Shown here piece by piece: positions 53,485-59,430 of a DNA stretch of 64,000 nucleotides. This DNA is from Alphaproteobacteria bacterium (GTDB taxonomy: Bacteria; Pseudomonadota; Alphaproteobacteria; Sphingomonadales; Kordiimonadaceae), in contig JAJFIS010000031.1 in the NCBI GenBank assembly GCA_021774735.1, forward strand, positions 62,001-126,000, in the 5' to 3' direction. The position numbers and the translations under genes were made by a program. Position 1 is the stretch's first letter. Each line of letters opens with the position of its first letter. The notes under the pieces are model-generated. The model was not told where the DNA came from. It saw nothing but the letters and a program-made list of their open reading frames with translations, and searched no databases.

Positions 53485-55152
53485 ATGAAAAATCGCCCTG
53501 ATATCCACGCACCAACCGGCCCTGAACTTAATGCAAAACATTGGGGTGCTGAAGCGCCGCTACGCATGCTGATGAATAATCTAGACCCTGCTGTGGCTGA
53601 AAACCCGGAAGAGCTGGTGGTTTATGGCGGTATTGGCAAAGCCGCGCGTAATTGGGCCTGTTTTGACCAGATTGTCGAGAGCTTAAAACAGCTGGAAGAA
53701 GATGAAACGCTTCTTGTACAGTCGGGTAAGCCTGTGGGGGTTTTTAGGACCCACACCGATGCGCCGCGTGTTTTAATTGCCAATTCAAATTTGGTGCCTC
53801 ACTGGGCTAACTGGGACCATTTTAACGAGCTGGATAAGCGCGGGCTTGCCATGTACGGCCAAATGACCGCCGGCAGTTGGATATATATTGGCAGTCAGGG
53901 CATCGTGCAGGGTACCTATGAAACCTTTGTTGAGATGGGCCGTCAACATTTTGGTGGTGACCTTTCTGGCAAATGGATATTAACCGCAGGGCTCGGTGGC
54001 ATGGGGGCCGCACAGCCTCTGGCCGCGACGATGGCAGGGGCATCCTGCATCGCCATTGAATGCCAAGAAAGCCGCATCGATTTTCGCCTTAAAACCCGTT
54101 ATTTGGACCGGCGCGCGGATACCATTGAAGAGGCTTTGTCCATGGTGGAAGAGTCTCACGCTAAGGGCAAAGCGGTGTCGGTTGGGGTGCTGGGCAATGC
54201 GGCAGAAATTTTACCGCAAATGCTGGAAAAAGGCATCAGGCCCGATGCGGTGACCGATCAAACCAGCGCCCATGATCCGGTGAATGGCTATCTGCCTGAA
54301 GGCTGGACGGTGGCTGAATGGTTTGATAAGCGCGAGCGCGATCCGGCGGCAACTTCTAAGGCTGCGAAGGCATCAATGGCTAAACATGTGCGGGCGATGC
54401 TTAAATTTCACGCGATGGGCATTCCAACTTTTGATTACGGCAATAATATCCGCCAAGTGGCACTGGACGAAGGCGTAACCAATGCCTTTGATTTCCCAGG
54501 CTTCGTTCCGGCTTACATCCGGCCGCTTTTCTGCCGTGGTGTTGGCCCCTTTCGTTGGGTGGCACTGTCCGGGGACCCAGAAGATATTTACAAGACCGAC
54601 CAAAAGGTTAAGGAACTTTTGCCCGATGACAAACACTTGCATAACTGGCTGGATATGGCCCGAGAGCGGATCGAATTTCAAGGCTTGCCTTCGCGCATTT
54701 GCTGGGTTGGGCTGGGTGATCGTCACCGGTTAGGTCTCGCCTTCAATGAAATGGTCAAGAACGGTGAGCTTAAAGCCCCAGTGGTTATTGGCCGCGATCA
54801 TCTTGATAGTGGCTCGGTCGCCAGCCCCAACCGCGAAACCGAAGCGATGAAAGATGGCTCTGACGCTGTGTCTGATTGGCCGCTTCTCAATGCGCTTCTA
54901 AATACTGCCTCGGGTGCCACATGGGTGTCGCTGCACCACGGCGGCGGCGTTGGTATGGGCTTTTCCCAGCATTCTGGCATTGTTATTGTGGCAGATGGTA
55001 CCGATGCAGCTGCAAAGCGCCTTGGACGGGTGCTGTGGAATGACCCCGCAACCGGCGTTATGCGCCACGCGGACGCGGGTTATGATATCGCCAAAGACTG
55101 CGCCCGTGAAAAAGGCTTAAACTTGCCGATGTTGTCAGGAGAGAGCGCATGA
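53485..55152 (+). CDS. hutU: Urocanate hydratase
   Basis: NAD-dependent enzyme that adds water to urocanate to make imidazolonepropionate, step two of histidine breakdown. The 555-residue protein is full length and has the urocanase blocks [28 protein letters not shown] (dinucleotide-binding loop) and the C-terminal [15 protein letters not shown]. It follows hutC by 36 bases and overlaps hutH by four, so hutC-hutU-hutH-hutG form one transcript. Confidence 0.97.
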
Positions 55153-56684
55153 ATATTTTAAAACGGGATGCCGGAGACTTTTCACTGAAAGACCTTCGGG
55201 TTATTTTTGAAGGGCCTGTAGCGCTTAAATTCTCTGCGGATAGTGTAGAGCGCGTGCAAAAGGCCCGCAAAACGGTGACCGACCTAATTGAGCGGGACGA
55301 AACCGCTTATGGCATCAACACTGGCTTTGGTTTGCTTGCTAATACGCGCATACCATCTGGCGACGTTGAGAAATTGCAAGAAAATTTGGTGCTTTCCCAC
55401 GCCACAGGTACGGGCGAGCCACTAGAAGACCGCGTTGTTCGGCTGGTATTAGCCTTGAAAGTGTCTAGCTTGGCCCAAGGGCATTCAGGTGTGCGTCAAA
55501 GCACGATTGATGCGCTAATGGCGCTATTGGCTCATGAGGTATATCCGCTTATTCCCGCAAAAGGCAGCGTTGGCGCGTCGGGTGACCTAGCGCCGCTGGC
55601 CCATATGGCAGCGGTATTGCTTGGTGTCGGTGAAGTACGCCACGCAGGCATTGTTATGTCGGCGACCGATGGCTTAGCTATTGCGGGCCTAACCCCAATG
55701 AAGCTTGCCGCCAAGGAAGGTTTAGCATTGCTGAACGGCACGCAGGTATCAACGGCTCTGGCGCTTAAGGGTTTGTTTTTACTTGAAAATTTATTCGCGT
55801 CTGCCGTTGTTGCTGGCGCACTTTCTGTTGATGCGCTCAAGGGCAGCGATGTGCCCTTTGACCCGCGCATTCAGGCCGTTCGCCGCCATAAAGGGCAAAT
55901 CGATGCGGCAGCTGCTTATCGGGCTCTGCTTGCGGGCAGTGATATTCGCCACAGCCATGAAGAATGCGACAAGGTGCAAGATCCATATAGCTTGCGCTGT
56001 CAGCCGCAGGTGATGGGTGCGGCTCTAACACTATTGCGGCAAGCGGCAAATACATTGCTGGTGGAAGCTAACGCCGTGACCGATAACCCGCTTATATTCC
56101 CGAGTGAAGGCGATATACTCTCTGGTGGTAATTTCCACGCCGAACCCGTGGCGATGGCGGCGGATATGCTGGCGCTTGTTGGCTGTGAAATCGCCAGCAT
56201 TTCAGAGCGGCGCACCAGCTTGCTGGTGGACCCTCACATGAGTGGCTTACCAGCCTTTTTGGTCAAGGAAGGCGGATTAAATTCGGGCTTTATGATCGCA
56301 CAAGTAACAGCGGCGGCGCTGGTGAGTGAAAACAAAACATATGCTCATCCCGCTAGCGTGGACAGCATACCCACAAGTGCGGGCCAAGAGGACCACGTAT
56401 CAATGGCGACCTTTGCTGCGAGAAGACTAGGTGACATAGCGGGCAATGGTGCCGCCGTTGTCGGCATTGAACTTATCGCCGCCGCACAGGGCGTGGAATA
56501 TCGCAGGCCCTTAAGGTCATCGGCTAAGCTGGAAACGGTGATGTCAGCGATCCGCGAGAAAGTGGAGCCTTATACAAAAGATCGTTATTTCGCCCCAGAT
56601 ATTGCCCACGCGCGGGCCTTGGTCGAAGAAGGTGTTTTTAACCATTTGGCGGCAGAGGTTTTGCCCTCCTGTGAGGTGAGCTAA
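55149..56684 (+). CDS. hutH: Histidine ammonia-lyase
   Basis: Deaminates histidine to trans-urocanate, the first step. The 511-residue protein has the MIO-forming triad Ala143-Ser144-Gly145 in [14 protein letters not shown], with YGINTGFG (about 54-61) and the conserved NPLIF and EDHVSMA. Its start overlaps hutU and its stop overlaps the hutG start by one base (TAATG), so translation is coupled on both sides. Confidence 0.97.
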
Positions 56685-57472
56685 TGAGCGGTGCTTACAC
56701 ACTAACAGAAGGCACAAGCCCGCTGGTAATATCCATGCCTCATAGCGGGCTGTTACTTGACGGTTTTGATGATGATTTAGCCGAGGTCGCCTTTGCCCGC
56801 GATGATACGGATTGGCATATTCCACAGCTTTATGAATTTGCAACTGATTTGGGCGCAACGGTTCTACAGGCCAATTATTCGCGCTATGTCATAGACTTAA
56901 ACAGGGACCCATCAGGCATTAGTTTGTACCCCGGCCAGAATGTGACCGAGCTTTGCCCGATAAGCACCTTTGGTGAGGGGGTCTTATACATTAAGGGCAA
57001 AGAACCAACTGCTGATGAGATTAAAGCGCGGGTGAAGGCAGTGTGGAAGCCCTATCATGCGGCCCTGAAAACCGCCCTTGAGCGCATTAAAGCAAAGCAT
57101 GGTTTTGCTGTTTTGTTAGACGCTCATTCGATCCGCTCCATCGTGCCTCGCTTTTTTGAGGGCAGATTACCAGACTTTAACATTGGTACCAATGGCGGCC
57201 TCAGCTGTGGTGAAGGGTTGGGCGAAGAGATCCTGACAATATTACAGAGCTATGATGCTTATAAAGCGGTCTTGAATGGACGCTTTAAGGGTGGTTATAT
57301 CACAAGGGCTTATGGCCAGCCCAATGATGGCATTCACGCAGTACAGTTGGAACTATCCCAAATCACCTACATGGATGAAAAACCGCCTTATTCTATAGTG
57401 CAGAATAAGGCTGATAAGGTATTACCTGTCTTGAAGTCTATGGTGAGCTGTTTAACTCAGTTTCAGCCGTAA
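56684..57472 (+). CDS. hutG: N-formylglutamate deformylase
   Basis: Hydrolyses N-formyl-glutamate to glutamate and formate, the last step of the HutF branch. The 262-residue protein belongs to the FGase family: MPHSGLLLD at the start, SRYVIDLNRDPSG, LLDAHSIRSIVPRFFEG and QLELSQITYMDE. This is not the Fe/Mn ureohydrolase-type HutG that releases formamide, as shown by the absence of arginase motifs. It ends one base before the convergent VOC gene. Confidence 0.92.
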   Translation: MSGAYTLTEGTSPLVISMPHSGLLLDGFDDDLAEVAFARDDTDWHIPQLYEFATDLGATVLQANYSRYVIDLNRDPSGISLYPGQNVTELCPISTFGEGVLYIKGKEPTADEIKARVKAVWKPYHAALKTALERIKAKHGFAVLLDAHSIRSIVPRFFEGRLPDFNIGTNGGLSCGEGLGEEILTILQSYDAYKAVLNGRFKGGYITRAYGQPNDGIHAVQLELSQITYMDEKPPYSIVQNKADKVLPVLKSMVSCLTQFQP

Positions 57473-57889
57473 TCAGTCGACCGCAAAAATTTGTCCCATA
57501 TCTTTGAAGGACTTTATCTCTAAGGCGTTGCCAGCGGGATCACGGAAGAACATCGTTGCTTGCTCGCCTGCTTTGCCTTTAAAGCGCACTTTAGGTTTTA
57601 TGATAAAACTAATGTCAGCTTTTGCTAATTTATCTGCTAATTGTTGCCATTCCTCCCACGCTAATATAACACCAAAATGAAAGCTTGGCACCGCATCACC
57701 GTCCACTTTGTTACGGTCTGGGTCGCTAATAGGTGTTGCTAAGTGGGTAACAAGTTGGTGACCATAAAAGTTAAAGTCGATCCATTTATCACTGCTGCGG
57801 CCTTCCTCACAACCAAGCAAGTCACCATAAAAATTACGCGCTTTTGCCAGATCATTAACAGGAAAAGCTAAGTGGAAGGGTGGGTTCAT
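57473..57889 (-). CDS. VOC/glyoxalase-like protein
   Basis: A 138-residue vicinal-oxygen-chelate fold protein, with [22 protein letters not shown] at the N terminus and [15 protein letters not shown] near the end, each holding candidate metal ligands. Family members include glyoxalases, dioxygenases and resistance proteins; the substrate is unknown. The start at 57889 has AAGGA nine bases upstream; an earlier ATG at 57898 is too close to it. It abuts hutG tail to tail with no spacer, so neither has room for its own terminator. Confidence 0.8.
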
Positions 57890-57929
57890 TTCTATCATTC
57901 CTTATTTATTTTTTAAAAATAGCATAGAC

Positions 57930-57970
57930 TTGACCCACATCAAGTGGCTTTTGAATTTTCTCTATATAAT
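57930..57970 (+). promoter_or_regulatory. FNR/FixK-type box with class II promoter
   Basis: TTGAC-N4-ATCAA (57930-57943) matches the TTGAY-N4-RTCAA half-sites of FNR, FnrL and FixK proteins. A perfect -10, TATAAT (57965-57970), follows. With transcription starting at 57978 the box centre is at -41.5, the spacing used by FNR-activated class II promoters. No good -35 is present, as expected when an activator replaces it. Confidence 0.65.
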
Positions 57971-57977
57971 GCAGAGA

Positions 57978-58122
57978 TGGTTGTTATTCACAATTTGCTT
58001 CCTGTTGAATGGCAACCACCCGGGCAGAAACATGTTGATGCTTCCCCAAGAACATGCTCCGGGATGTACTAGGCGCGACCATTTATCTGTTCTTGTAATC
58101 GGATGCATGGTCGCGCCTTTAC
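57978..58122 (+). ncRNA. Candidate FNR-controlled small RNA with anti-Shine-Dalgarno loops
   Basis: About 145 nucleotides with three stem-loops. SL1: TGGTTGTTATTCA (57978-57990) pairs over 13 bases (two G-U) with TGAATGGCAACCA (58006-58018), loop with GCTTCCTG. SL2: CCCGG/CCGGG (58019-58023/58059-58063) plus CATGTT/AACATG (58031-58036/58051-58056), loop with GCTTCCCC. SL3: AGGCGCGACCAT/ATGGTCGCGCCT (58071-58082/58107-58118), 12 perfect pairs, then TT and a T-rich end. Loops resembling CUUCCU/CUUCCCC could pair with ribosome-binding sites, as in known alphaproteobacterial trans-acting sRNAs. No open frame fits. It was identified by structure alone; it has no known name. Confidence 0.6.
58071..58122 (+). 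terminator. Terminator hairpin of the small RNA candidate
   Basis: Twelve perfect base pairs (58071-58082 with 58107-58118) and a 24-base loop, followed by a short T-rich run. It would also insulate the downstream argE-type gene, 126 bases away. Confidence 0.6.
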
Positions 58123-58248
58123 TATTTCATGTTTATATTTCAACAGATATATTCACTTTAACCGAACAGGTGAAATATATTTTGGCTCAATGATTTCAAT
58201 TGGTCCATTAATGCATTAGGCTGCGGCAAAATATTATATGAGAATATT

Positions 58249-59430
58249 ATGGCGCAAAACTCCCCCGAAATGACAGAAATTCTGGATCAGCTTGAAAAGC
58301 TGATTGCTTTTGATACGGTCAGTCGTAACAGCAACATGGCTTTGATCAAGTATGTGGAAAAATATCTGACTGATTTTGGCATTATGCCCCAATTATTCAT
58401 GAACCCAGAAGGGGATAAAGCCAATCTTCTCGCGACCATAGGGCCTAAAGACCTGCCGGGGATTTTATTAAGTGGCCACAGTGATGTGGTGCCCGTAGAC
58501 GGACAGCAATGGTCATCTGACCCCTTTGTTTTGCGCCGCGATGGGGGCAAGCTTTATGGTCGCGGTACCAGTGATATGAAAGGCTTTATCGCGCTAATGT
58601 TAGCAATGGTGCCGCAGCTGGTGGATGCTCGCTTAACCATGCCAGTTCATATTGCGCTATCTTACGATGAAGAAGTTGGTTGCAGCGGCGTACGTAGTCT
58701 TGTGGACCATATGGCAACGCTAAAAGTAAAGCCTAAGCTGTGCATTGTCGGCGAACCTACATCGCTGAAACCTGTGAATGCCCATAAAGGCATTCGTGCC
58801 TTGCGGACCTTTATTATAGGCAAGGCTGGTCATTCATCAAAGCCAGCTGATGGCATAAATGCCCTTGTAGTTGCCGCAAAATTTGTTGCGCAGCTAGACC
58901 AGCTTCAACAGGAATTAGCTGGCGCGCAACCAAGTAGTGAGGCCAAGAGATTTAACCCGCCCTATAGCACCATCAATGTAGGGCAAGTGTCGGGCGGGAA
59001 TGCGATTAATATAATTGCTGAGCGGGCTGAAATTCTGTGGGAATATCGCACCGTGCCCGGCGGGGATGCTGAATGGGTAAAAGACCAGATGCAAGATTGG
59101 GTGGAAAGTGAGCTAAAGCCTCAGATGGGCATTGAAGGTGCAGAGCTTGTCATAGAGACCGAAGATATCGCCAATACACCGCCATTAATTGCTGATAGCG
59201 GCAGCGAAGCCGAGGCCTTTGTCATGGCACTCGCCCTCAGCAATGATGTGGCTGCTGTTTCTTACGCAACTGAGGCTGGACTTTTTCAGCGTGACGCAAA
59301 TATTCCAGCCTTAGTTTGCGGTCCCGGCTCCATTGACCAAGCCCATATTGCGGACGAATATATTGAACTTACTCAATTGCAGGCAGGGTGGGACTTTCTG
59401 CAACGATTGCTGGTAAAAATTAGTGGCTGA
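58249..59430 (+). CDS. argE: Acetylornithine deacetylase (ArgE-type M20 peptidase)
   Basis: Zinc-dependent M20/M28-fold deacetylase, 393 residues. Metal ligands are in LLSGHSDVVPVDG (His76, about) and GRGTSDMKGF, and the catalytic Glu pair is in SYDEEVGCSGVR; GEPTSLKPVNAHKG is typical of ArgE. It would release ornithine from N-acetylornithine in arginine synthesis; related M20 enzymes act on other N-acyl amino acids. No arg genes are adjacent, but carAB lies in the same window. It ends one base before the convergent deoB. Confidence 0.83.
   Translation: MAQNSPEMTEILDQLEKLIAFDTVSRNSNMALIKYVEKYLTDFGIMPQLFMNPEGDKANLLATIGPKDLPGILLSGHSDVVPVDGQQWSSDPFVLRRDGGKLYGRGTSDMKGFIALMLAMVPQLVDARLTMPVHIALSYDEEVGCSGVRSLVDHMATLKVKPKLCIVGEPTSLKPVNAHKGIRALRTFIIGKAGHSSKPADGINALVVAAKFVAQLDQLQQELAGAQPSSEAKRFNPPYSTINVGQVSGGNAINIIAERAEILWEYRTVPGGDAEWVKDQMQDWVESELKPQMGIEGAELVIETEDIANTPPLIADSGSEAEAFVMALALSNDVAAVSYATEAGLFQRDANIPALVCGPGSIDQAHIADEYIELTQLQAGWDFLQRLLVKISG

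Follow-up and report, generated by a model that had tools for sequence, protein, structure and literature searches.

FNR-controlled small RNAs (sRNAs) are well studied in gammaproteobacteria. FnrS of E. coli is activated by FNR at low oxygen and acts in trans on mRNAs that are dispensable without oxygen (PMC5703892; PMC8139620). In the alphaproteobacterium Rhodobacter sphaeroides, the low-oxygen-induced sRNA PcrZ depends on FnrL (PMC8139620), and FnrL was bound at the putative promoters of the sRNAs RSs0019 and RSs2461, both of which are uncharacterised (PMC4263372). NfeR1/alpha-r14 of rhizobia folds into three hairpins with anti-Shine-Dalgarno (anti-SD) motifs in the loops and highly differing stems (PMC10746234; PMC3927594), and the mRNA for the regulator NtrB (ntrB) is bound by NfeR1 through base pairing at its ribosome-binding site (PMC10746234). 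Three stem-loops and two UC-rich anti-SD stretches are also found in NmsRA and NmsRB of Neisseria meningitidis, which repress mRNAs of the TCA cycle (PMC5362039).

The stretch analysed here (the window) comprises 64,000 nt of contig JAJFIS010000031.1 from an alphaproteobacterium of the family Kordiimonadaceae. It probably contains a genuine sRNA gene, judged from sequence, in the gap between a gene for a glyoxalase/VOC-fold protein and argE. The features of the locus are:

57473–57898, minus strand: divergent neighbour, glyoxalase/VOC-fold protein (Pfam PF00903, E 3e-12), which marks the conserved place
57930–57943, plus strand: FNR box TTGACCCACATCAA, putative activator site of the RNA promoter (sequence match to the sphingomonad consensus)
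57965–57970, plus strand: perfect -10 element, TATAAT, 21 nt 3' of the FNR box (by sequence)
57977–57978, plus strand: predicted transcription start, A57977 or U57978, placed from promoter geometry
57977–58072, plus strand: 31-codon ORF within the RNA, translated as MVVIHNLLPVEWQPPGQKHVDASPRTCSGMY, probably not a gene
57978–58018, plus strand: hairpin 1, with GCUUCCUG in its loop at 57997–58004 (fold z -3.7 alone)
58019–58063, plus strand: hairpin 2, with UGCUUCCCC, the conserved motif, in its loop at 58039–58047 (fold z -1.8 alone)
58071–58127, plus strand: hairpin 3 with a weak U-run, probable terminator (fold z -7.2)
58249–59430, plus strand: downstream neighbour argE, acetylornithine deacetylase (NCBIfam TIGR01892, above cut-off), which is not in the RNA gene

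The preliminary description had proposed an FNR-driven sRNA in a gap without a real gene. The FNR box, TATAAT, stem 1, the last hairpin and the C-rich loop motifs were all re-found at the same coordinates, and no long gene covers the RNA region. On the far side of the VOC-fold gene a histidine-utilisation cluster (hutU-like, the aromatic amino acid lyase hutH, and hutG) occupies positions 53485–57472.

Sphingopyxis presumably belongs to the same order as the family of the window's genome, given the GTDB placement. The box at 57930–57943 is a perfect fit to the FNR box mapped in that genus, TTGA(c/t)N4(g/a)TCAA, where class II promoters are centred at -40.5 to -42.5 (PMC7713065). With a start at U57978, as originally suggested, the centre of the box is indeed at -41.5, but A57977, a purine 7 nt past the -10 element, is at least as likely to be the start and would place it at -40.5. 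Both values are class II positions, and the same layout occurs in G005, a genome from another genus of Kordiimonadaceae, and in four genomes of the genus g9, likewise of this family (the window's own genome is G000), where box and -10 element are 21–22 nt apart compared with 21 nt in the window. The box cannot be a class II site for the divergent VOC-fold gene, since only 31 nt separate it from that gene's start codon.

A Crp/Fnr protein (L054) of the window's genome has a CX2CX7C motif, a fourth cysteine and an E..SR recognition helix. Its best NCBIfam match is FnrL, at a score below the cut-off of that model. In the alphaproteobacterial FnrN group the third cysteine is typically shifted by two residues (PMC7713065). 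From its sequence the protein is a regulator of the FnrN/FnrL type in which the four cluster cysteines are all present. Boxes of the Sphingopyxis type number 20 in the genome, against four for the reversed pattern; 15 are inside predicted genes and five are intergenic. Of the intergenic boxes, besides that of the window, one precedes feoA, another lies between narK and a gene for a Crp/Fnr-family regulator, and two, assigned by eye only, precede genes for a sensor-like membrane protein and a chemoreceptor-like protein. Both feoA and narK are classic low-oxygen genes. The regulator adjoining narK (L055, G000:C36:94615-97824) has a long N-terminal part that looks like a nitrate-sensing (NIT) domain.

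The predicted RNA folds at -61 kcal/mol compared with -37 kcal/mol for dinucleotide shuffles (z -6.5), and none of 200 shuffles was as stable. Its three hairpins span 57978–58118. A stem beginning at 57978, as first described, agrees with the fold of the 57978–58018 segment by itself, while hairpin 2 is less stable on its own than hairpins 1 and 3. The loop motifs are GCTTCCTG (57997–58004) and GCTTCCCC (58040–58047), each inside a loop. Hairpin 3, proposed earlier as a 12-bp terminator, is a real structure of 12 + 6 bp, but the tail that follows it, UUUACUAUUU, is too poor a U-run for the hairpin to be listed in the terminator scan. The RNA is single-copy in its genome, which rules out a dispersed repeat.

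In G005 the orthologue of the VOC-fold gene is 72% identical and has an RNA gene on the same side. Ahead of it, on the far strand, are the box TTGACACGTGTCAA, a 22 nt spacer, the -10 element CATACT and three hairpins, with a terminator hairpin followed by UUUU (fold z -4.0). The conserved loop reads AAUGCUUCCCC in G005 and GAUGCUUCCCC in the window, with GCUUCCCC common to both, while the stem sequences share nothing. The preliminary description had seen two anti-SD loops; the second is firm, being kept in G005, but the motif of the first is absent there. Using a density of about seven boxes per Mb and one 9-letter motif within a range of 31 positions, and allowing for the 30 places examined, a chance match in G005 would have a probability in the region of 1e-5, as a rough estimate. 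The case for homology of the two RNAs is their shared place, promoter and one loop.

Searches by overall similarity gave a different picture. BLAST of the window RNA in 61 genomes returned nothing beyond chance, and the covariance-model search of relatives, which had been proposed as a check of the original interpretation, gave no significant match: a single-sequence model run over 199 genomes had no hits apart from the window and the window's reverse strand. With filters off, the model hit G005 at the right place at 6 bits (E 2), and the g9 RNAs scored no better, so that common descent of the G000, G005 and g9 RNAs was not recovered by this sequence–structure model. It finds no relatives because the stem sequence is unconserved between G000 and G005. 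Upstream regions of other VOC-fold genes (L104, L120, L123) have FNR boxes and no comparable RNA, and none was seen at a pattern match in G002 (L158), which folds at -27 kcal/mol.

A pattern consisting of the box, 17–23 nt, YANNNT, 40–70 nt and GCTTCC was searched for in 399 genomes of the order. It was found at 23 places, compared with three for the reversed pattern, and nine of the 23 are in the 30 genomes of the family, most of which have no intergenic match with the motif. In the g9 genomes G008, G011, G024 and G029 an intergenic FNR box is followed at 21–22 nt by a -10 element and, 52–57 nt further on, by YGCUUCCCY; this motif is part of an inner hairpin's loop and has a CCUCAC stretch ahead of it. 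Together with G000 and G005, these four genomes share an intergenic FNR box, 21–22 nt to the -10 element, and a looped YGCUUCCCY 52–68 nt on. The plan of the g9 RNAs is unlike that of the window RNA, since the inner hairpin lies within a single long outer stem, and the stems and neighbours are different. The RNA sequences of G008 and G011 are identical. Across the three distinct sequences, aligned by hand, nine outer-stem pairs give 27 cells, every one of them a standard pair, and five of the nine pairs show double changes; this is good evidence from sequence that the g9 RNA is structured. Compensatory changes, which the preliminary description had expected in the stems across relatives, were therefore seen, but only within this group. 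Shared descent of the g9 and G000/G005 RNAs and a likeness of promoter and loop logic alone are both compatible with these data. The g9 loci (L160, L162, L163, L177) also have a conserved CCUCAC and a 5' UUGCUU, and their neighbours are acetyltransferase-like, MarR regulator-like and patatin-like genes. A patatin gene follows the RNA in G011 and G024, with a strong terminator-like hairpin between the two in G011.

These comparisons bear on several other explanations of the locus. The 31-codon ORF, overlooked in the preliminary description, opens at the predicted start site and closes just short of hairpin 3, so FNR might instead drive a leaderless mRNA from A57977 for a 31-residue peptide, in which case the C-rich motifs would be codons and the last hairpin its terminator. 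The motif can be read in a frame that yields -ASP- from GAT GCT TCC CCA (window) as well as from AAT GCT TCC CCT (G005). However, a start codon is lacking near the predicted start in G005, the G005 peptide matches that of the window in three residues only, and the g9 RNAs encode nothing similar; the maintenance of g9 stem pairing through double changes is also unexpected for a reading frame. Because of the missing start codon in G005 and the missing g9 peptide, a small protein gene is considered unlikely, and the remaining alternatives (a cis-acting leader, a decoy and a chance assembly) are each less likely than this one.

The RNA is directed towards argE, which begins 130 nt downstream, and could in principle be a leader or attenuator whose hairpins control readthrough into that gene. 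It is not a leader of argE to judge from G005, where another gene, in convergent orientation, comes next. The patatin gene after the RNA in G011 and G024 argues in the same direction, and an FNR box within 500 bp upstream was found for none of 29 argE homologues from other genomes, making cis control of argE very unlikely. That the locus is an orphan FNR box beside fortuitous hairpins, with no gene at all, is the least probable of the alternatives: FNR boxes do occur within genes and the terminator is imperfect, but box, spacing and loop recur at the orthologous place of G005 and in four g9 genomes, and the fold is far more stable than its shuffles. The proposal of an FNR-driven sRNA is upheld by the presence of an FNR-type regulator in the genome, the G005 locus of the same layout and the YGCUUCCCY RNAs of g9.

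A pattern scan of 84,980 species returned 83 stretches, most of them in genes. The majority were rejected as chance matches for this reason, and those that appeared real were the g9 RNAs (two g9 sequences are identical to stretches L235 and L218) and two distant candidates. A class-wide pattern was found at 11 places compared with one for the control, but at least six of these lie in genes. The first distant candidate, in an alphaproteobacterial MAG (L259, 4647–4855), has an FNR box between two convergent genes, a TATCTT element and two very stable hairpins; the loop of the second hairpin contains CGCUUCCCUCCCCCC and is a 15-nt pyrimidine loop, CGCTTCCCTCCCCCC. The second is MAG B40T1L10, with FNR-driven RNA-like units carrying C-rich stretches at L228 and L245. 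Two units are in tandem on the reverse strand of L228, with their boxes at 133 and 425 (292 bp apart), and both end in a textbook intrinsic terminator, TTTTT after a G+C-rich stem; a third unit lies elsewhere. One unit of this MAG has the hairpin GGTGCCTCCCTGCACC, and for one the fold predicts that the motif is base-paired. The units at L259, L228 and L245 are regarded as leads and not as members of the group.

The loop motif GCUUCCC is complementary to GGGAAGC, a usable Shine-Dalgarno sequence. The ribosome-binding site of the genome's own FNR regulator gene, AAAGGGAAGCGACATG (L338/L054, G000:C50:69949-69964, minus strand), has a 7-nt perfect complement of loop 2. Pairing with the loops is not exclusive to this site, which came third among 52 start regions. 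From this match it is possible, on thin grounds, that the window RNA feeds back on the mRNA of its activator, as NfeR1 does on ntrBC (PMC10746234). When five genomes were searched for GGGAAGCR near an ATG, there were no targets shared between genera among the matches listed, and the sole clear shared orthologue was within g9 (G008, G029). In G005, GGGGAAGC occurs shortly before the start codon of a cytochrome c'-like gene (L412, G005:C1:392469-393083), and the mRNA of this gene is a plausible target of the G005 RNA by complementarity.

The GCUUCC loops might alternatively titrate another RNA or a protein, making the transcript a decoy (sponge) or protein-binding RNA that leaves ribosome-binding sites alone. 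The position of the motif in hairpin loops, its repetition in the window RNA and the lack of a conserved target set among the matches listed would suit such a role. Against this, the loop perfectly complements G-rich ribosome-binding sites (GGGAAGC), including that of the FNR regulator gene, and ribosome-binding sites are where other RNAs of alphaproteobacteria with C-rich loops act (PMC10746234), so a sponge appears quite unlikely.

The reading we consider likely is that the locus specifies an FNR-activated, trans-acting sRNA whose C-rich loop or loops pair with ribosome-binding sites. As oxygen falls, the [4Fe-4S] form of the FNR-type regulator would bind at 57930–57943 as a class II activator, and transcription would begin at about 57977/57978 and end at or near the third hairpin, giving a product of about 140–150 nt acting in trans. 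Hairpin 2 would then pair through its exposed C-rich loop, perhaps aided by loop 1, with G-rich ribosome-binding sites and lower the translation of mRNAs unwanted at low oxygen. It seems that selection maintains promoter and loop but lets the stems diverge freely, and this is why no RNA family model detects the window RNA. A broader and more doubtful proposal is that the RNA belongs to a widespread alphaproteobacterial class of FNR-driven anti-SD sRNAs defined by promoter and loop motif alone, in which stems, neighbours and copy number turn over (with perhaps three such genes in one distant alphaproteobacterial genome, at L228 and L245), and that the window RNA represses the mRNA of the FNR regulator to close a feedback loop.

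If confirmed, the window RNA would be the first FnrS analogue of a lineage whose FnrL-bound sRNA candidates are uncharacterised (PMC4263372). It would also represent a group of RNAs held together by promoter and loop and not by stems, which would explain why covariance-model surveys have missed them. It would be a find for specialists, not a new principle.

The view that the RNA belongs to no named family has held up in comparison with the described systems. Rfam 15 has no family in the region at gathering score, the weak matches up to E 10 being to other families, and isrD and STnc410, which scored far below their cut-offs, were rejected as its identity. In the open-access literature we came across no description of such an RNA from Kordiimonas. 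With RSs0019 and RSs2461 the likeness is one of description (alphaproteobacterial FnrL-bound sRNAs). PcrZ is an FnrL-dependent low-oxygen sRNA of the kind predicted here, although its control by FnrL may be indirect and its promoter has a PrrA site. NmsRA and NmsRB resemble the window RNA in stem-loop number and anti-SD stretches; they are from another lineage and are not described as FNR-driven. FnrS is similar in the predicted FNR control of an sRNA gene but differs in its loops and hairpin plan, and the window has no Rfam match to it or to any other sRNA family. Like alpha-r14/NfeR1, the window and G005 RNAs have three hairpins with unrelated stem sequences. In contrast, their motif is GCUUCCC/GCUUCCU and not CCUCCUCCC, and it is firm in one loop only; the alpha-r14 motif (CCTCCTCCC) is absent from both strands of the whole window, and the RNA is not alpha-r14 because CCUCCUCCC is missing. 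Control is also different, by LsrB/NtrC for NfeR1 compared with the predicted FNR for the window RNA. The best reading is of an RNA that is controlled like FnrS and built like NfeR1, and is a member of neither family.
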